Shown: positions 53,232 through 62,435 of the stretch, in pieces
Layout of the letters: each line of letters starts with the position of its first letter
Position numbering within the stretch: the first letter of the stretch is position 1
NCBI RefSeq assembly: GCF_023650515.1
Contig: NZ_CP096016.1
Span: 1,698,001 to 1,762,000, forward strand
Length of the DNA stretch: 64,000 nucleotides
Direction: 5' to 3'
Origin: Alkalimarinus coralli
GTDB taxonomy: Bacteria; Pseudomonadota; Gammaproteobacteria; Pseudomonadales; Oleiphilaceae
Made by a program: the position numbers and the translations under genes
Notes under the pieces: generated by a model
Seen by the model: the letters and a program-made list of their open reading frames with translations, nothing else
What the model was told of the DNA's origin: nothing
Databases searched by the model: none

Positions 53232-55037
53232 CTATTGAAACGTTGTAGCCCCCTCCTCTGCTGATGTTGCTCTCGATCTCATGCCTTGAAACAACCCTCT
53301 TCCCAGACTGCTTGAACTTTGCTTGAGACTCTCATTGGTAAACTGCTTCAGTCTGGACTGGAGGTCTGCATTAACTGACAGAGTGCCTTTAACCGCATCA
53401 ATGTCTATAACATCTCCCTCAGCGATCACTGCAATAGCCCCCCCTGCATTACTTTCCGGGGTGACATGAATCACCGATAACACTTTACCCGATGCACCCG
53501 ATAAACGCCCATCCGTCACTAACGCAACGTTATAGCCTCTATCCTGTAATACGCCCAACACAGGCATAAGCTTATGCAGTTCGGGCATTCCGTTCGCGCG
53601 TGGCCCCTGCTCTTTTACCACTACAACACAATCTTTATCTAGCAACCCTTCTTCAAAGGCCTGTTTAACGGCTTCCTGCGAACAAAAGACGGCTGCTGGA
53701 GCTTTGATTTTGTGATGCTTTTCGGGCACAGACGATAGTTTTACAATGGCCCGTCCAATATCTCCGGCAATCAAACAGAGGCCGCCGCTGGCTGCAAAGG
53801 GGTCAGAACCTATTCTGATAATACTTTTATCAAGGCTCTCAGTGGAGGCTGTCCAGGACAAAGTTTGATTGCCCAATGAAGGTCTCTGAGTATACTTTTC
53901 AAGTCCTTGCCCCATAATCGTCGCTACATCGCGGTGCAGCATACCAAGCTCAAGAAGCTCCTTAATAACCAGTGGGACACCTCCTGCGTGATGAAACTGA
54001 TTAATATCAGCATCCCCACTAGGGTAGACCCGAGCGAGCAAAGGAACGACGGCTGACAATGCTGAAAAATCATCCCAATTGATCACTATCCCAGCGGCAC
54101 GAGCAATCGCAACAAGATGAATGGTATGATTGGTAGAGCCTCCAGTGGCAATAAGCCCAATCATTGCGTTTACAACGGACTTTTCGTCAATCATTTTTCC
54201 CAGTGGGGTATAGTGATCAGTAAGTGCTGTAATTTTGCATATTTGTTCCGCGGCCGATACTGTCAGTGCATCCCGCAATTCAGTGCCAGGCGGAATAAAA
54301 GATGAACCAGGAAGATGCAGACCAAGAAACTCCATCAGCATCTGATTACTATTCGCCGTCCCGTAAAACGTGCAAGTACCAGGAGAGTGGTAGGACTTAA
54401 CTTCTGCTTCGAGCAATTGGTCTTTACTTATTAAACCTTCTGCATACTGCTGCCTGATGTGCGCTTTTTGTTTATTCGGTAAACCTGTTGGCATAGGGCC
54501 TGCTGGTACAAATACCGCTGGCAGGTGACCAAACTCCAAAGCCGCGATTAGCAGGCCGGGCACAATCTTGTCGCAAACTCCCAAGTACAGAGCGCCGTCA
54601 AAAACGTTGTGGCTCAATGCAACTGCGGCGGACATCGCTATGACATCACGGCTCAGTAGCGAAAGCTCCATACCTGGCTGGCCTTGAGTAATGCCATCGC
54701 ACATTGCCGGAACACCAGCGGCAAACTGCGCGACATGCCCCTTTCTAGCAACGGCTTCCTTTATAAGTTTCGGGTATGCGCTATACGGTTGGTGCGCTGA
54801 AAGTAACTCATTATAGGCAGAGATAATAGCGATATTTGCATGCTGCTCACGCTGTTTAAGAATTAACTTTTCGTGGTCTGTGGACGCCGCCACATCATGC
54901 GCCAAGTTGGTACAGCTTACCTGGCTTCTTGCTGGGCCTTGCACAAACGCCGTCTCAACCTTGTTAAGATAGGCAGCCCTGCTTTGCGCACTGCGATGCA
55001 AAATTCGATCTGTAATCATAGATATGGTTTTGTTCAT
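53232..55037 (-). CDS. edd: 6-Phosphogluconate dehydratase
   Basis: 601 residues, close to the usual 608. It dehydrates 6-phosphogluconate to KDPG using an iron-sulfur cluster. Features are the IlvD/Edd signature around [55 protein letters not shown] and [22 protein letters not shown]. It begins one base after the pgl stop, so the two are coupled. Confidence 0.95.
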
Positions 55038-55038
55038 A

Positions 55039-55761
55039 TCAGCTCGCCTTGTTATCGCTAGTAGCCGCCCAAAATACGGTTACCGGAACAGCGTCTTGTT
55101 TGAGTACTGCTGTAATGGGTAAGTTTGGCACCGCACTTGCGTTAATCTCTTTGCAAGCACGCCTATATACGGCCAATTTATCTTCACCTGTCATTAGCAG
55201 ATAGATTTTCTTTGCTGTTAGAATTTTGGCTAGAGTAAGAGATATTCGCTCCTTTGGCTCTGACGGAGCAAAGGTCGCCAGGCACTGCCTGGAACTGCTT
55301 AGATCCAACCCTTTTGCTAAAACATCGGAATGCGGAAACAGCGAAGCAAAATGGCCATCAGCCCCCATCCCTAATATGACCAAGTCTAAAGATGGGAGTT
55401 CATTTTGAAGATACTTTTCGAGCTCAGCTTCAGCCTTTTCTGCTGAAGGATGATGAGTTTTAAGGCTGATAAAACGAGCACCTTGAGCGCTATTCTGTAA
55501 TAAGTGCTGCCTAACCATTCTCTCATTACTCGCAGTATGATCAACAGGTACCCAACGCTCATCTGTTAAGGTTATCGTGACGTTATGCCAGCTCAAATCG
55601 ACTAAGGAAAGACCGTCGTATAGGTTAACAGGTGTTGTTCCGCCACTGACCGCGAGACTAGTTTCGCCCGACTCTTTTATAGACCTCGAAATATCTCGTG
55701 CAATTGTATCTACAAGCTCGTTGAGCATTTCCTGATGGTTATTAAATAATCGCTCAATCAC
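55039..55761 (-). CDS. pgl: 6-Phosphogluconolactonase
   Basis: 240 residues, DevB/SOL-type. [20 protein letters not shown] near the start, [19 protein letters not shown], and [19 protein letters not shown] with the active-site His. It hydrolyses 6-phosphogluconolactone. The start overlaps the zwf stop by four bases (ATGA) and the end is one base from edd, so all are on one transcript. Confidence 0.94.
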
Positions 55762-57260
55762 TCTTCCCCCTCGTTAAGCATACTCTCTTGTAGAGGGCTG
55801 CTTGTCTCATCCCACAGACGACCGTCTTTAGCCAGCAATAGTGTGGCAGCAGCTGGCCCCCAGCTACCGGCAATATAGGGTTCAGGCTCCTGCTCTGACT
55901 CATCCCAGTGCTTCAAAATTGGGTCAAGCCACTCCCAGGCAGCGATTAGTTCGTCCTGCCTGACAAATAGCGTTTGATTATTACTAATGACATCACCAAG
56001 CAGTCTTTCGTAAGCATCAGGTATATGTTTACGGTTAAGGTAGTCAGGGCTTAAACTAAGCTCGGTTGACCGCACACTAACACCTGGGCCTCTTTTCTTT
56101 TCACACAGTTTTAACCTGATTCCTTCATCAGGCTGGAGTCGAAATACCAGCTTGTTGGCCATGGTATTTTTATGCTGTAAGTCGAAAATTGAGTGGGGAA
56201 CTTCCTTAAAGTGGACAACAATTTCACAGGCTCTATGAACTAACCGCTTCCCCGTTCGAAGGTAAAAAGGAACCCCAGCCCAACGCCAATTATCAATTTC
56301 AACTTTCATGGCGACGAATGTTTCTGTTTCACTCGAAGGAGCTACGCCCTCCTCGTCCAGATAACCAGCGACGGCGACGCCGTTCGAAATACCTGAACTG
56401 TATTGGCCCCTAACGACTTTTTTTTGTACGTCCTGATCGCCCAGTACTCGAAGCGCTCTAAGCACTTTTACTTTTTCATCACGAACGGCATCCGGGTTAA
56501 ACCGGGCAGGAGGCTCCATGGCGACAATACACAGCAGTTGCAAAAGGTGGTTTTGCCCCATATCCCTAAGCGCACCCACGTGATCGTAAAACTGTGCTCG
56601 CTCCTCAACCCCCAAGGTTTCAGATATCGTAATCTGAATGTTATCGATATATTTCTGATTCCACTGAGACTCAAATATTGTGTTGGCAAACCGCAAAACC
56701 AGCAGATTTTGAACAGTCTCCTTCCCCAAGTAATGATCGATTCTAAAGATCTGCTGCTCTTTAAAGTGGCGGCACACCAGTTGGTTTATTTTTTTCGCAG
56801 AAGCCAAATCTGAACCAATAGGCTTTTCCAACACTATTCTACTTTTTAAGCTATTTAAGCGGGCCTTGGCTAACCCATTACATATTTTTCCGTACAGCGC
56901 TGACGGCGTAGCAAGATAAAATATCTTATTGCTGTCGGCTTGCTGTTCAACCAGCTCCTTTAGCTCACCGTAGTTATCAGGCTCTGTTGCGTCAAATGAC
57001 AAGCAGACAACATGTTTTGTGAAAGACGCCCACTTTGATTTTAATTTTTTATCATTAAGGTCGTGTTTAACCCCGACAGACTTGTGCAACGTTTCGATAA
57101 AGTCTTTGTGCTCTCGTCTAAATAAAGCAACCAGCCTCCACTCATTAGGAAGCCTCGCGTCAGCGTATAGCGAAAACAGTGCTGGCAAGAGTTTGCGGGT
57201 AGATAGGTCTCCAGTTGACCCAAACAACACTAAGTCAAATGGCTCATTTAACGGCATCAT
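55758..57260 (-). CDS. zwf: Glucose-6-phosphate 1-dehydrogenase
   Basis: 500 residues from ATG 57260; the frame continues to 57329 with unrelated residues. NAD(P) motif DLVLFGSTGDLSTRKLLPALF. Active-site motif RIDHYLGKE. Also VLEKPIGSDLASAKKIN, VAGYLDEEGV and FYLRTGKRL. First gene of the Entner-Doudoroff operon zwf-pgl-edd-eda. No glk or hexR gene is attached in this window. Confidence 0.95.
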   Translation of the reverse strand: MMPLNEPFDLVLFGSTGDLSTRKLLPALFSLYADARLPNEWRLVALFRREHKDFIETLHKSVGVKHDLNDKKLKSKWASFTKHVVCLSFDATEPDNYGELKELVEQQADSNKIFYLATPSALYGKICNGLAKARLNSLKSRIVLEKPIGSDLASAKKINQLVCRHFKEQQIFRIDHYLGKETVQNLLVLRFANTIFESQWNQKYIDNIQITISETLGVEERAQFYDHVGALRDMGQNHLLQLLCIVAMEPPARFNPDAVRDEKVKVLRALRVLGDQDVQKKVVRGQYSSGISNGVAVAGYLDEEGVAPSSETETFVAMKVEIDNWRWAGVPFYLRTGKRLVHRACEIVVHFKEVPHSIFDLQHKNTMANKLVFRLQPDEGIRLKLCEKKRGPGVSVRSTELSLSPDYLNRKHIPDAYERLLGDVISNNQTLFVRQDELIAAWEWLDPILKHWDESEQEPEPYIAGSWGPAAATLLLAKDGRLWDETSSPLQESMLNEGEE

Positions 57261-57501
57261 AATCAATACGGCCCCTATTACAAATTGACTCGCTGAACAA
57301 CTTCGGATGTAACAACGGTAAAGCCACAAAACTGAAAAAGAGACATGCTTACCGCAGTCAGACTTATCGTTATACCATAGTTTATTAGGGTAAGGCCAAA
57401 CAGCATCCTAGCCAAGCATTTAAAGATTATGTCGATCAATAGAGACCAGCCTGACGATAGTGATCAGCTAGAATAACATGCCAAGGCCTTTGCTTGATGC
57501 G

Positions 57502-57518
57502 TGCACAAAAGGTGTGCA
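57502..57518. promoter_or_regulatory. NtrC-like enhancer site
   Basis: TGCACA-AAAGG-TGTGCA is a perfect 6-bp inverted repeat with a five-base spacer. It has the same length and core (TGCAC-N7-GTGCA) as the NtrC consensus TGCACC-N5-GGTGCA. It lies 128 bases upstream of the -24 element of the sigma-54 promoter, a normal enhancer distance. Confidence 0.72.
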
Positions 57519-57646
57519 GGATGCGAAATATCTTAAGTTGAATGTCTTAATATCGCCCGTAAATTGATTCTGGCTGCTCGTTAAAAATCACTATTTTCTG
57601 CATATAAAATAGCGTATCCCTCTGTTATTTCGTAATATTTTATATC

Positions 57647-57662
57647 TGGCATATCAATTGCG
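57647..57662 (+). promoter_or_regulatory. Sigma-54 promoter of the FNT-kinase-cyanase operon
   Basis: TGGCAT-ATCAA-TTGCG. The GG (57648-57649) and GC (57660-57661) are exactly ten bases apart, as required at -24 and -12. The predicted start near 57672 leaves a leader of about 55 bases before the FNT start. Confidence 0.78.
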
Positions 57663-57727
57663 TTTACAGGAATATGGTTAGAACCATTTGCACTTAAACA
57701 AATGATACTAGTGAAGAGAGAAACGAT

Positions 57728-58561
57728 ATGTCATATCTAGCGCCTTCCGAGTTTGCCACCAAGATGGTGGACGCCGGAGAATCAAAAATATTTATGTCTA
57801 CCAGAGACACCTTAATCCGAGCGTTTATGGCCGGAGCAATATTAGCTTTAGCTGCGGTGTTCGCAATTACCGTCGCAGTTAAAACAGGAATGTTTTTACT
57901 CGGAGCAATATTATTCCCGGTCGGCTTTTGCATGCTCTACCTAATGGGCTTTGATTTGCTAACGGGAGTGTTTGTGTTAGCGCCTTTAGCGCTACTCGAT
58001 AAGCGCCCAGGCGTTACAGCCAAGGGCGTGTTGAGAAACTGGGGACTAGTCTTTGTAGGCAACTTTGCTGGAGCCCTCACCGTCGCGTTTATGATGGCGT
58101 TTATTTTCACCTACGGGTTTAATGTCGAGGCTGGCCCTATCGGAGAGAAGGTAGCAGGCATTGGCGAAGCACGCACACTAGGCTATGCACAATACGGCGC
58201 TGATGGTTGGTTAACTATTTTTATACGCGGAATGCTGTGTAATTGGATGGTATCTCTCGGTGTTGTAGGCGCAATGATCTCAACGTCAGTTAGCGGCAAG
58301 GTTATTGCGATGTGGATGCCAATATTTCTATTTTTCTTTATGGGGTTCGAGCACTCAGTCGTAAACATGTTCTTATTCCCCTTTAGTATCATCATGGGGG
58401 GGGACTTCTCGGTTATGGATTACCTAATCTGGAATGAAATTCCAACAGCGTTAGGCAACCTAATCGGCGGTCTCGCCTTTACAGGGTTAACCTTGTATAC
58501 AACACACGTCAAAACGGCACCAAAGCGCTCAGCTGAACCCTACATGAGCAAAGTGGCATAA
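57728..58561 (+). CDS. Formate/nitrite transporter family channel (FocA/NirC-like)
   Basis: 277 residues, six predicted membrane helices. Start YLAPSEFATKMVDAGESKI fits the family's pore-lid helix, and NMFLFPFSIIMG and GNLIGGLAFTGLTLY match the helix-5/6 region; a central pore His is expected in GFEHSVVNMF. Because cyanase follows and the promoter is sigma-54/NtrC-like, nitrite or another nitrogen anion is the likelier cargo than formate. That choice is inferred. Confidence 0.9.
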   Translation: MSYLAPSEFATKMVDAGESKIFMSTRDTLIRAFMAGAILALAAVFAITVAVKTGMFLLGAILFPVGFCMLYLMGFDLLTGVFVLAPLALLDKRPGVTAKGVLRNWGLVFVGNFAGALTVAFMMAFIFTYGFNVEAGPIGEKVAGIGEARTLGYAQYGADGWLTIFIRGMLCNWMVSLGVVGAMISTSVSGKVIAMWMPIFLFFFMGFEHSVVNMFLFPFSIIMGGDFSVMDYLIWNEIPTALGNLIGGLAFTGLTLYTTHVKTAPKRSAEPYMSKVA

Positions 58562-58574
58562 CCTTCAATAGGTT

Positions 58575-58613
58575 AAACAAGCCTAAACCCGGTAAATCTG
58601 TTTAGGCTTGTTT
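58575..58613 (+). promoter_or_regulatory. Stem-loop between FNT and kinase genes
   Basis: Perfect 14-bp arms AAACAAGCCTAAAC (58575-58588) and GTTTAGGCTTGTTT (58600-58613), ending six bases before the kinase start. It could partly terminate transcription or occlude the start, lowering kinase expression relative to the channel. Confidence 0.7.
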
Positions 58614-58618
58614 ATACA

Positions 58619-60349
58619 ATGAGTATTATGAAAGAAAAGCTCAAGGTTTCCCTTGGACAATGCTCTGATCGCGGCAGAAAGTCAGAAAACCAGGACAATC
58701 ATGGCGCCCGCCTTCCCAATGATTCACTACTAGCACTGAAAGGCGTTGCGATCGCAATGTCTGACGGCATTAGTTCCAGCGATGTAAGTCATATAGCGAG
58801 CGAAACTGCCGTTAATGCATTTCTTGAAGACTACTACTGCACGTCAGAAGCCTGGTCGGTAAAAACCTCAGCCGAACGAGTGTTAAAAGCGACAAATTCC
58901 TGGCTAAACTCTCAGTCCTTAAAGGATTCAAGTCGCTACGACAGAGACAAAGGATATGTTTGCACTTTTAGCGCAGTCATTCTAAAAAATCTCACCGCTC
59001 ATATTTTTCATGTGGGCGACTCAAGAGTCTATCGCCTCAATGAGAACGGCCTTGAACAACTAACTCACGATCACCGCTTATGGGAAACTGAAGAAAAAAG
59101 TTATCTTAGCCGGGCAATGGGCATGGCTGCCCAGTGCGAGTTCGATTATCAAGCGCTTCCCCTTCAAAACAACGACATTTATATCATCTGCACTGACGGG
59201 GTCTATGAATTCGTTAAGACACAACAAATAGTTGAAACAGTCAGACATTATAATGATGACCTGAATAAGGCCGCCCGCACGATTGCAGAGCATGCATATA
59301 ACCAAGGTAGCGAGGATAACCTAACCATACAAATTGTTAAAATTGAATCACTTCCCACAGACGTTCACAACGACATTAAAAAAACTGCTGAAGCATTAAA
59401 TCTTCCGCCAGCACTAACAGCCGGTGTTGAATTTGACGGATACGAAGTTCTGCGCCAGATCCATACAAGTAGCCGCAGCCTGGTTTACTTAGCGCAAGAC
59501 AAGGTGTCTAAAAAGAACGTTGTCTTGAAGATACCGACATCAAATTCCCACGACGATAAGCGTTATATAGAGAGCTTTTTACTTGAAGAGTGGATAGCCA
59601 GACGCCTCAGCAGCGCTCATGTACTTAAGGCTAAACGGCCCGACCGGGAACGCCAGTACATTTACACTGTGTTTGAATTTATAGAAGGCCAAACCCTTGC
59701 TCAATGGGCAATAGACAACCCAAAACCATCGCTTGAAACGGTTCGCGGTATTGTAGAGCAAATTGCAAAGGGTCTACATGCATTTCATCGAATGGAAATG
59801 CTGCATCAAGATTTAAGGCCAGAGAATATTATGATCGATACGGAGGGTACCGTAAAAATTATAGATTTTGGTTCTGTTAGCGTTGCTGGCCTGGTTGAAA
59901 CAGAAGTACAACAGCCACTGACCTATTTAAAAGGAACTGCGCTCTATAGTGCACCGGAATATTTTTTGGGTTGCTCGGGTACGGTCAAATCCGAGCTGTT
60001 TTCACTCGGCGTCATCACCTATTTCTTACTTTCTGGACGCTACCCATATGATACTGACGTAGCCAAAGCCAAAACTCGAGCAGCGCAAAAAAAACTTTGG
60101 TACCGCACGATTATCAATGACGAGGTAGAGATTCCAATATGGGTTGACGATGCAATACATAGAGCCGTTCACCCTTTCCCGGAAAACAGGTATGAAGAGG
60201 TTTTCGAGTTTATCCATGACTTGAAGAAGCCAAACCGCAGGTTCATAGAAAAAACACGGCCTCCTCTCATACAGCGAAACCCAGTAAGGGTATGGCAAGG
60301 TATTTCAGCAATACTCGCCATGATAGTCGTTTACCTGATCAGTCAATAA
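58619..60349 (+). CDS. Bifunctional PP2C phosphatase / serine-threonine kinase, membrane-anchored
   Basis: 576 residues; ATG 58628 is an alternative start. The PP2C domain (~8-245) has NQDNHGARLP, AMSDGISSSDVSHIAS, HVGDSRVYRL, CTDGVYEFV and SEDNLTIQIV. The kinase domain (~270-530) has VVLKIP (ATP lysine), an HQD catalytic loop in HQDLRPENIMID in place of HRD, and DFGS. A membrane helix ends the protein (~553-574). It probably phosphorylates and dephosphorylates a partner at the membrane; the adjacent channel is a candidate. No strong ribosome site. Confidence 0.9.
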   Translation: MSIMKEKLKVSLGQCSDRGRKSENQDNHGARLPNDSLLALKGVAIAMSDGISSSDVSHIASETAVNAFLEDYYCTSEAWSVKTSAERVLKATNSWLNSQSLKDSSRYDRDKGYVCTFSAVILKNLTAHIFHVGDSRVYRLNENGLEQLTHDHRLWETEEKSYLSRAMGMAAQCEFDYQALPLQNNDIYIICTDGVYEFVKTQQIVETVRHYNDDLNKAARTIAEHAYNQGSEDNLTIQIVKIESLPTDVHNDIKKTAEALNLPPALTAGVEFDGYEVLRQIHTSSRSLVYLAQDKVSKKNVVLKIPTSNSHDDKRYIESFLLEEWIARRLSSAHVLKAKRPDRERQYIYTVFEFIEGQTLAQWAIDNPKPSLETVRGIVEQIAKGLHAFHRMEMLHQDLRPENIMIDTEGTVKIIDFGSVSVAGLVETEVQQPLTYLKGTALYSAPEYFLGCSGTVKSELFSLGVITYFLLSGRYPYDTDVAKAKTRAAQKKLWYRTIINDEVEIPIWVDDAIHRAVHPFPENRYEEVFEFIHDLKKPNRRFIEKTRPPLIQRNPVRVWQGISAILAMIVVYLISQ

Positions 60350-60393
60350 CGATGATGAATCCTTCTAGTCAATCTAAATAATCGGAGAATATA

Positions 60394-60843
60394 ATGATTA
60401 ACAGTCGTGAAGAGGTAACAAACCTGATTCTTTCAAAAAAAGTAGCGAAAGGTATCAAGTGGAGTGAAGTAGCAGCCTCTATTGAACTTTCAAAAGAGTG
60501 GACGACCGCAGCTTGCCTGGGGCAGATGACCTTTAGTAAGCAGCAAGCAGAGATCGTTGGCAATATTTTTGAGCTCCCAGACGAAGCCATTGCATGGTTA
60601 CAAATTCCTCCCTATAAAGGGTCTTTGCCCACCGCCGTTCCTACAGACCCTCTTCTGTACCGATGGTATGAAGTGGTAAATGTATACGGGTCAACGATTA
60701 AAGCCCTTATACACGAAGAGTTTGGTGATGGAATAATGAGCGCTATTGATTTTTCGATGGATATCAAGCGAGAAAAAAACCCAAACGGAGACAGAGTTGA
60801 TGTGACCCTGTCAGGTAAATTCTTACCCTATAAAACCTACTAA
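60394..60843 (+). CDS. cynS: Cyanate hydratase (cyanase)
   Basis: 149 residues. It converts cyanate and bicarbonate to ammonia and carbon dioxide. The catalytic triad is visible as Arg90 (LYRWYE), Glu93 and Ser116 (GIMSAIDF), offset six from E. coli Arg96, Glu99 and Ser122. The N-terminal helical domain and C-terminal DRVDVTLSGKFLPYK are typical. Third gene of the sigma-54-preceded unit, 44 bases after the kinase gene. No carbonic anhydrase gene accompanies it. Confidence 0.95.
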   Translation: MINSREEVTNLILSKKVAKGIKWSEVAASIELSKEWTTAACLGQMTFSKQQAEIVGNIFELPDEAIAWLQIPPYKGSLPTAVPTDPLLYRWYEVVNVYGSTIKALIHEEFGDGIMSAIDFSMDIKREKNPNGDRVDVTLSGKFLPYKTY

Positions 60844-60857
60844 CTTTGTATATAAAA

Positions 60858-60885
60858 GAAAGGCAGCCTCATCAGGCTGCCTTTC
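60858..60885. terminator. Hairpin terminator between cynS and hsp20 (convergent)
   Basis: Perfect 12-bp stem GAAAGGCAGCCT / AGGCTGCCTTTC with a CATC loop; an A-rich stretch precedes it, giving Us on the minus transcript. It serves both converging genes. Confidence 0.8.
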
Positions 60886-60912: not shown

Positions 60913-61473
60913 TTAACTCGCCTTTTTAATATCAATATGCCTTACATTAGTCTTTGCAACTTCCTTGCGAGGTATATTGATCGTCAAAACCCCATTTTTG
61001 AAGTCTGCTTTAATATCATCCTGCGAAGCATCTTCTGGAAGGGATAAGACCCTTTGGAATTTCCCGTAAGTCCGTTCCATACGGTGATACTCTTTATTTT
61101 TATCCTCTTTCTCCTGCTTCTTTTCACCCTTTATTACCAGCGTATCATTTGACACCTCAAGTTCTACCGCGTCTTCATCTACGCCTGGCACTTCCAGCGA
61201 GATCGTGTAGTTCTTGCTATCTGATTCAATATTAATATTGGGCTTTAGCAAGTTAGTCTGCTCGCTGAAAAAGGACGTATCCCAACCTGTTGGCAAAGTG
61301 CCAAATCCCTTAAATGCTTCATCAAACAAACGGTTAATATCCTGATGCAAACGCATTATAGGGCTTTGCATCATAGGGCTGGGCGCCAAAGAGTGTTCGT
61401 TACGTTCCCTTTCACGCCTTTCACCTTCTTCATGATTTAGCCAGTTCCAGGGGTTTAGTTGTTTAAGATCCAT
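60913..61473 (-). CDS. Small heat shock protein (Hsp20/alpha-crystallin)
   Basis: 186 residues. The alpha-crystallin domain is at ~75-175: NYTISLEVPGVDEDAVELEV, DTLVIKGEKKQE, RTYGKFQRVLSLPEDASQDDIKADFKNGVLTINIP. The A-x-x-x-n-GVL and C-terminal IxI-like anchor (IDIKKA follows) are present. An unusual N-terminus is rich in Glu/Arg (NHEEGERRERERNEHS). Chaperone holdase. GAGAGGAGG ribosome site; long structured leader upstream. Confidence 0.93.
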   Translation of the reverse strand: MDLKQLNPWNWLNHEEGERRERERNEHSLAPSPMMQSPIMRLHQDINRLFDEAFKGFGTLPTGWDTSFFSEQTNLLKPNINIESDSKNYTISLEVPGVDEDAVELEVSNDTLVIKGEKKQEKEDKNKEYHRMERTYGKFQRVLSLPEDASQDDIKADFKNGVLTINIPRKEVAKTNVRHIDIKKAS

Positions 61474-61844: not shown

Positions 61845-62435
61845 GTGAATCAACATTTTTTAAAAATGCGTGAAACACTCGAACAACGCTTTAAAGCTGA
61901 ACTTTCTGACTGGAGCCGGTTCATAGACTTTTTTCATCTGCAGCAACTCGATGAGGGTGAACACTGGATCAAAGCGGGCCAGAGTTGTGAAGAGTTCTTT
62001 TACATCGCAGAAGGTCTGGTTCGAATTTACTATGTCGACCAGGAAGGAAACGAAGTAAACGAAGGCTTTTATGAGGAAGGGATGCTACTGGGACCTATCT
62101 CTAGCTTCGTAAGCGGAGCTCCCTGCCCGTACTACATTCAGACTATTGAACCAGCCACCTTACTGATCGCAAACTATCCAAAGTTTCACGCATATGCTCT
62201 GGATAAACCGGAAATACTGAACTTTGAAATAACCTTTATGCATAGTTTGTTTGTCAGCAACGCCAAGCGCGATGCCAAACGTTTAATATGCAATGGTGAG
62301 CAGCGTTATCGTTGGTTTTGCAAAGAATACCAACATCTACTGGATCGAATTCCTCAGTATCACATCGCTTCATTTTTAGGTATGACGCCAGTCAGTCTAT
62401 CCAGACTAAAGAAGAATCTTAACCAGACTAATTAA
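61845..62435 (+). CDS. Crp/Fnr-family transcription regulator
   Basis: 196 residues, GTG start. The cyclic-nucleotide-binding-type beta domain is at ~25-115 (IKAGQSCEEFFYIAEGLVRIYYVDQEGNEVNEGFYEEGMLLGPISS). The C-terminal HTH is short (YHIASFLGMTPVSLSRLKKNL). No FNR-type Cys cluster. Effector and targets are unknown. It stands alone between divergent hsp20 and convergent fadH. Confidence 0.82.
   Translation: MNQHFLKMRETLEQRFKAELSDWSRFIDFFHLQQLDEGEHWIKAGQSCEEFFYIAEGLVRIYYVDQEGNEVNEGFYEEGMLLGPISSFVSGAPCPYYIQTIEPATLLIANYPKFHAYALDKPEILNFEITFMHSLFVSNAKRDAKRLICNGEQRYRWFCKEYQHLLDRIPQYHIASFLGMTPVSLSRLKKNLNQTN

Follow-up and report, generated by a model that had tools for sequence, protein, structure and literature searches.

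A putative nitrogen-regulated uptake unit of Alkalimarinus coralli that joins an FNT channel to a partner-locked PP2C-kinase and cyanase

Results

The locus

We analysed 64,000 nucleotides of Alkalimarinus coralli (NCBI RefSeq assembly GCF_023650515.1, contig NZ_CP096016.1, positions 1,698,001 to 1,762,000 of the forward strand; this whole stretch is called the window), in which three adjacent genes code for an FNT-family channel, a fusion of a PP2C phosphatase with a Ser/Thr kinase, and cyanase. A preliminary description of this DNA had placed these genes, in this order, behind a palindrome and a -24/-12 promoter box, and our analysis confirmed each of these elements and their order on the single plus strand:

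57502-57518, no strand assigned: NtrC-like palindrome TGCACAAAAGGTGTGCA, a presumed enhancer, 0 mismatches
57647-57661, plus strand: sigma-54 -24/-12 promoter box TGGCATATCAATTGC, 0 mismatches to TGGCAYRNNNNTTGC
57728-58561, plus strand: FNT-family channel, 277 amino acids (PF01226, 1e-64)
58574-58614, plus strand: stem-loop in the FNT-kinase gap, terminator- or attenuator-like or mRNA-stabilising (from fold z-score and recurrence)
58619-60349, plus strand: PP2C phosphatase fused to a Ser/Thr kinase and ending in a hydrophobic anchor, 576 amino acids (Pfam)
60394-60843, plus strand: cyanase CynS, 149 amino acids (TIGR00673 equivalog)
60858-60885, no strand assigned: stem-loop in the interval where cynS and hsp20 converge, the likely end of the unit (12-pair stem)

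The channel matches the Pfam family Form_Nir_trans at 218.7 bits (cut-off 34.6), the fusion protein scores above the Pfam cut-offs for PF13672, PF00481 and PF00069, and the cyanase reaches 163.1 bits against the equivalog cut-off of 113.3. Under the curated NCBIfam models the channel stays below the cut-offs for FocA (125.3 of 290.1 bits), NirC (45.6 of 293) and TIGR00790 (148.7 of 232.3), and its best solved chain by sequence is that of algal LCIA (9v2a).

A channel subfamily and its kinase

Judged by sequence identity, the window FNT is a member of a distinct subfamily: across 293 genomes of its order, 56 FNT matches were at least 61% identical to it, and the remainder were at most 36% identical, except for one fragment of 57 residues at 70% (genome G259). 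This fragment (locus L112, G259:C4) is what is left of an FNT and adjoins a cynS gene. The kinase gene lies within 3 kb in 43 of the 55 loci of the order that have a complete or nearly complete FNT gene, and cynS is present at 25 of them (26 counting the fragment L112). The gene arrangements vary and include FNT-kinase-cynS, cynS-FNT-kinase, FNT-cynS-kinase, versions with cynS or the kinase on the opposite strand, FNT-cynS without a kinase, and nirB-nirD-FNT (for example at L045, L049, L100, L101 and L111) with or without a kinase. Among 40 loci from other orders and classes, the kinase accompanies 32 of the 33 channels that are at least 68% identical and none of the other seven, and cynS is found at 12 of the 40. 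FNT served as the search key for the loci from other classes, which fixes their FNT label by selection but leaves their position on the kinase tree free of it.

The kinases separate by the type of transporter beside which they are encoded, a partner-locked split that is new here. The kinase tree holds 123 rows, 81 FNT-linked, 31 linked to NarK-family transporters and 11 unlabelled, where the NarK label means similarity to a protein at locus L080 that itself scores above the TIGR00886 cut-off. Over this tree the label changes once, compared with 27.3 times after shuffling (Shimodaira-Hasegawa approximate likelihood-ratio support 99), and the single change persists when two long branches are removed. 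On the FNT tree (n = 91, omitting L226-L228 and L113-L115 as well as L050 and L112 for their length), the kinase label changes 6 times, that of nirB 10 times and that of cynS 18 times; both trees are quick searches. With one change of partner among the kinases and 18 changes for cynS among the channels, the kinase tracks the transporter and not the enzyme. The genome of the window carries a second kinase copy, 39% identical (L082, G000:C1:160784-174466), which lies downstream of two NarK-family genes and a divergent nirB. Another genome has two kinases at one locus (L077, G136:C6); NarK adjoins the first and FNT the second, and each groups with the kinases of its own partner type. Twenty further kinases of the order, picked by hand, comprise 13 beside NarK, three near nirB only and four beside neither NarK nor nirB.

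The residues D26, D49, D193 and D233 of the phosphatase-kinase fusion, together with K304, E323, D398, N403 and D416, are present in 39 of 39 FNT-linked rows (4 of the 43 FNT-linked rows were left out of this reading) and in 17 of 17 NarK-linked rows. Both kinase and phosphatase activities therefore appear to be under selection, because both active sites are invariant in the rows read. In addition, a hydrophobic stretch follows an R-x-P-x3-W motif at the C-terminus in 52 of the 59 tails read, and this membrane anchor was found in both the FNT-linked and the NarK-linked kinase types. Of the hints that the kinases act on the transporter, the strongest is their separation by partner type; the channel may thus be the kinase substrate. 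Among open-access papers, as far as their available text goes, we recognised none that treats this kinase together with FNT or cyanase.

A possible link to cyanate

In the order, 42 genomes hold both a subfamily FNT (or its fragment) and cynS, and the two genes adjoin in 27 of them. The genes for the cyanate ATP-binding cassette (ABC) transporter CynABD are present at none of the 26 FNT-linked cynS loci of the order compared with 15 of the 40 FNT-less ones (Fisher p 0.00018, a value that treats related loci as independent), and all 15 of these loci also carry CynF. Within the order, FNT thus occupies the place where CynABD otherwise stands, an observation that is new here. Moreover, CynF is divergently encoded beside FNT-cynS genes that lack the ABC transporter, at L067, L106, L108 and L109 and, in other orders, at L208 and L215. 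Five of the 91 FNT loci are two-gene FNT-cynS units with no kinase or nirB within 5.5 kb (L102 and L106-L109), and three of these five adjoin CynF. In Pseudomonas pseudoalcaligenes, expression of cynABDS requires CynF, and nitrate/nitrite transporters have been suggested as a second cyanate route, according to the sections of that report available to us (PMC6627978). The preliminary description had proposed the uptake of a nitrogen anion as the theme of the locus, which these findings support. Cyanate transport by the window FNT is proposed on the basis of the genomic exclusion with CynABD, and we take cyanate to be the likelier substrate in the window and nitrite in the nirB-linked relatives.

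A different substrate would be bicarbonate, the second substrate of cyanase. LCIA, the closest solved chain, is a bicarbonate/nitrite channel, and the carbonic anhydrase gene cynT occurs, together with cynR, at 6 of the 40 FNT-less cynS loci of the order versus none of the 26 FNT-linked ones, both of which would suit a bicarbonate-importing FNT. Against it, FNT-kinase and FNT-nirB units exist without cynS, CO2 enters cells freely, and a weak carbonic-anhydrase match (30%, 89 bits) lies near the unit of Kistimonas asteriae, which carries all three genes, FNT, kinase and cynS. We keep this explanation as a weak and very improbable rival.

A conserved sigma-54 promoter with an NtrC-like site

The sigma-54 consensus is TGGCAY-N5-TTGC, and the box TGGCATATCAATTGC matches this form, including its GG-N10-GC core, with 0 mismatches, the GG lying at 57648-57649 and the GC at 57660-57661. 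The palindrome, of the NtrC site form TGCAC-N7-GTGCA, starts 145 bp before the box. In the 64-kb window the palindrome is not in excess, with 2 copies found at up to 2 mismatches and 2.94 expected, and the -24/-12 pattern is not clearly above chance, with 10 copies found at up to 1 mismatch and 4.6 expected (at least 10 in 2 of 100 shuffles). Because neither motif is significant inside the window alone, the case for them has to be made from the whole genome and from relatives.

The perfect form TGCAC-N7-GTGCA occurs at 5 places in the 4.83-Mb genome and a reversed control pattern at 1. One of the five is the palindrome of the window, one lies upstream of glnK-amtB-like genes (L036) and a third overlaps the start of an amt-like gene (L033; genes here were named by eye). 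At the glnK-amtB-like site a sigma-54 box with a score of 16.1 lies between the palindrome and the genes, and the opposite strand also has boxes (15.4 and 15.1); no good box was found within 300 bp downstream of the site at the amt-like gene. The remaining two palindromes, at cytochrome bc1-like and nitroreductase-like genes (L032 and L035, again named by eye), were rejected as true sites, being without a good box and chance-like. The genome holds one RpoN match and one NtrC above the curated cut-off (749 bits against 558.6).

In relatives of the same order, a sigma-54 box with a score of at least 15 stands upstream of FNT at 38 of 54 loci (shuffles 2.6, maximum 8; reverse strand 2), and a box accompanied by an NtrC-like site (8 or more of 10 letters matching, 60-180 bp above the box) at 23 of 54 (shuffles 0.2; reverse strand 1), a count that omits L050 (at a contig edge), the fragment L112 and G288. 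Where cynS or nirB leads the unit upstream of FNT, a box scoring at least 16 precedes the lead gene in 9 of 12 cases; this count covers sigma-54 boxes, the sequence above them being too short for NtrC sites to be judged. Control of the sigma-54/NtrC type, as put forward in the preliminary description, is thus predicted with good support from the conserved footprint, the presence of NtrC and RpoN genes, and the like palindrome before the glnK-amtB-like genes.

A stem-loop between channel and kinase

Positions 58559-58622 of the window fold at -22.5 kcal/mol with a z-score of -6.7, and a stem-loop in this place recurs in relatives. A hairpin of at least 7 pairs was found in 52 of 69 FNT-kinase gaps (16.4 in shuffled gaps), and a hairpin followed by a run of T in 29 of 69 (1.3 in shuffled gaps); the loop of the window itself has 3 T in its tail and falls under the T-run threshold. 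Control gaps gave hairpins in 0 of 14 cases for kinase-cynS (0.6 expected), 3 of 9 for cynS-FNT (1.9), 4 of 7 for FNT-cynS (0.8), 2 of 4 for nirD-FNT (1.4) and 11 of 30 for NarK-kinase (5.7), where gap ends are approximate (gene ends come from alignments), shuffles keep base content only, and the kinase-cynS gaps are shorter than the FNT-kinase gaps (mean 34 bp versus 74 bp). From these gap controls, the hairpin thus appears to come after FNT irrespective of which gene lies downstream. In the window 4 bases separate the end of the stem-loop from the ATG of the kinase, and by eye no ribosome-binding site precedes this ATG, whereas FNT and cynS each have one. Downstream of cynS, the segment 60841-60900 folds with a z-score of -6.8, and the stem-loop at 60858-60885 has a T-run on its minus-strand side only.

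The stem-loop suggests that less kinase than channel is made; probably a single promoter serves all three genes, but at unequal levels. The earlier reading of the genes as one unit has to be qualified in this respect, given the strong stem-loop at 58574-58614 that parts FNT from the kinase. The same stem-loop could mean separate transcripts, with FNT as a monocistronic gene that has its own terminator and with kinase and cynS as a second unit under a sigma-70 promoter. The terminator-like loops with T-runs fit such an arrangement; on the other hand, the mean FNT-kinase gap is only 74 bp, and in the window no promoter fits between loop and kinase because only 4 bases precede the ATG. A sigma-54 promoter of the kinase's own was considered and rejected, as boxes occur in 4 of 68 upstream regions compared with 8 on the reverse strand, with no enrichment, which likewise speaks against two units. 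We regard this arrangement as improbable.

Spread and neighbouring genes

The FNT-kinase pair or the triad was present on 5 of the 34 plasmid records that we looked at. FNT-kinase pairs are carried by plasmids of Azospirillum lipoferum, Methylobacterium nodulans and Cupriavidus pinatubonensis; a plasmid of Sulfitobacter pontiacus has kinase-cynS on a record that opens with the last part of an FNT gene, and plasmid pA of Acinetobacter junii (L231) has cynS-FNT-kinase with cynS on the opposite strand. On these records the kinase is labelled as a bifunctional protein-serine/threonine kinase/phosphatase only. The Acinetobacter plasmid is mobilizable and its copy of the unit lies near IS630, IS6 and IS5 elements; because of these insertion sequences and the mobilizable plasmid, the unit may travel.

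In the window, edd-like and pgl-like genes (named by eye) and zwf (Pfam) lie at 53232-57329 on the minus strand, divergent to the FNT unit, and form an Entner-Doudoroff entry set. An Hsp20 chaperone gene at 60913-61473 on the minus strand converges with cynS, and beyond it a Crp-like regulator with a cyclic-nucleotide domain is encoded at 61845-62435 on the plus strand.

Discussion

The explanation that we favour, with confidence only a little better than even, is that these genes form an NtrC/sigma-54-controlled uptake unit for a nitrogen anion, most probably cyanate in the genome of the window, with a kinase/phosphatase dedicated to the channel. Under nitrogen limitation, phosphorylated NtrC would bind at 57502-57518 and activate sigma-54 RNA polymerase at 57647-57661, with transcription starting at about 57672; we infer this binding, as we do the direction of the phosphorylation switch. 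The transcript would give much FNT, and the stem-loop would pass only part of the message, or of its translation, to the kinase. The FNT pentamer may then admit a small nitrogen anion, most probably cyanate in the window genome, which the co-encoded cyanase would convert to ammonia and CO2, and close relatives of the channel beside nirB probably carry nitrite. We picture the tail-anchored PP2C-kinase as reserved for FNT channels of this type, in parallel with the sister clade and its NarK-family transporters; most likely it adds phosphate to the channel and removes it again, so that the channel opens or closes according to nitrogen status. Candidate target sites in the FNT are a conserved MST[RK]DT stretch near the N-terminus (residues 23-28) and the threonines of THVKT (259-263). 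We advance a bolder version only tentatively, as possible and short of probable: that in proteobacteria a cyanate/nitrite FNT is gated by a private, tail-anchored kinase/phosphatase whose supply is limited by the stem-loop, and that the sister clade does likewise for NarK, so that the two would make up a bacterial family of phosphorylation-gated importers of nitrogen anions.

Besides the stem-loop, several observations weigh against the proposed unit. At the promoter, strong NtrC enhancers consist of two neighbouring NtrC sites, and a second good NtrC-like site was not found within 400 bp, the next best matching 7 of 10 letters and overlapping the first. Furthermore, the score thresholds of the 54-locus promoter count were chosen after a first look, and its loci, all of one order, are related and not 54 independent events. 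As for the kinase, it is absent from 12 of the 55 FNT loci of the order, and a candidate kinase-specific phosphosite on the channel had to be rejected, since no Ser/Thr column clearly separates 74 kinase-linked from 17 kinase-less FNTs. These two points would fit a kinase/phosphatase that targets another protein, for instance cyanase or a regulator of nitrogen metabolism, and that stands beside a transporter only by co-regulation. Of the four partnerless kinases among the 20 sampled, three with readable surroundings (L241, L242 and L249) have no FNT, NarK or nirB nearby, which also agrees with another target (the fourth, L235, lies at a contig end). However, co-regulation accords poorly with a single partner change over 112 labelled kinases when the cynS label shifts 18 times among the FNTs, or with a membrane anchor in both kinase types, and we think it rather unlikely that the target lies elsewhere.

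With regard to cyanate, cynS lies apart from FNT in 15 of the 42 genomes that have both, and the exclusion of CynABD is unclean beyond the order, where among 12 FNT-linked cynS loci L216 has CynB/CynD-like matches and L223 a CynD-like match, perhaps nitrate transporters. The cyanobacterial nitrite FNT NitM was not inhibited by cyanate, as stated in the portion of the report available to us (PMC4390861). In addition, a nirB-like match lies near the FNT in 18 of 91 loci (12 of them at least 57% identical to the NirB query and 6 at 36-40%). Because FNT also pairs with nirB, nitrite is its likely substrate elsewhere, and the FNT might be a nitrite channel in the window too, with cyanase merely a second nitrogen-scavenging gene under the NtrC promoter. 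The sister kinase clade, which accompanies NarK-family nitrate/nitrite transporters, is in keeping with such a role. What it leaves unexplained is the mutual exclusion of FNT and CynABD at the cynS loci of the order and the FNT-cynS pairs without kinase or nirB, three of which stand beside CynF. We therefore see a nitrite channel in the window as a possible but unlikely alternative to cyanate uptake.

To our knowledge, a physiological target has been established for only a small number of bacterial Ser/Thr kinases. A family of kinases whose members stay with a single type of transporter at about 100 loci points to such a target and makes it testable. The unit could also supply an entry route for cyanate in bacteria that have cyanase but lack CynABD; the literature on nitrifiers, in the text available to us, leaves this role of FNT uncertain (PMC10753782). 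Nitrogen starvation, the gating of a channel and the use of cyanate would thereby be connected.

The unit shares features with several known systems. Like cynFABDS of P. pseudoalcaligenes, which is described, in the sections available to us, as a sigma-54-linked and ammonium-repressed combination of cyanase and an uptake system (PMC6627978), it would couple cyanase to import under nitrogen control, and CynF is also found beside some FNT-cynS pairs; unlike cynFABDS, the window unit has FNT in place of the ABC transporter, adds the kinase/phosphatase, and has an NtrC-like site with no CynF within the surroundings searched. In Nitrososphaera gargensis and Nitrospira, among the few such nitrifiers, FNT and cynS also adjoin and permeability to cyanate has been proposed, but the available part of that report mentions no kinase and calls the role of the channel uncertain (PMC10753782). 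NitM, NAR1 and LCIA belong to the same family, and NitM and NAR1 carry nitrite; the difference lies in the kinase partner, of which the accessible text makes no mention for them, and in the indifference of NitM to cyanate noted above (PMC4390861). The nitrate-assimilation loci that pair NarK with a PP2C-kinase resemble the window unit in having the same kinase/phosphatase family beside a nitrogen-anion transporter. An example is PA1782 of Pseudomonas aeruginosa. They differ in that their kinases form the sister clade and that their transporter is of the major facilitator superfamily rather than an FNT.

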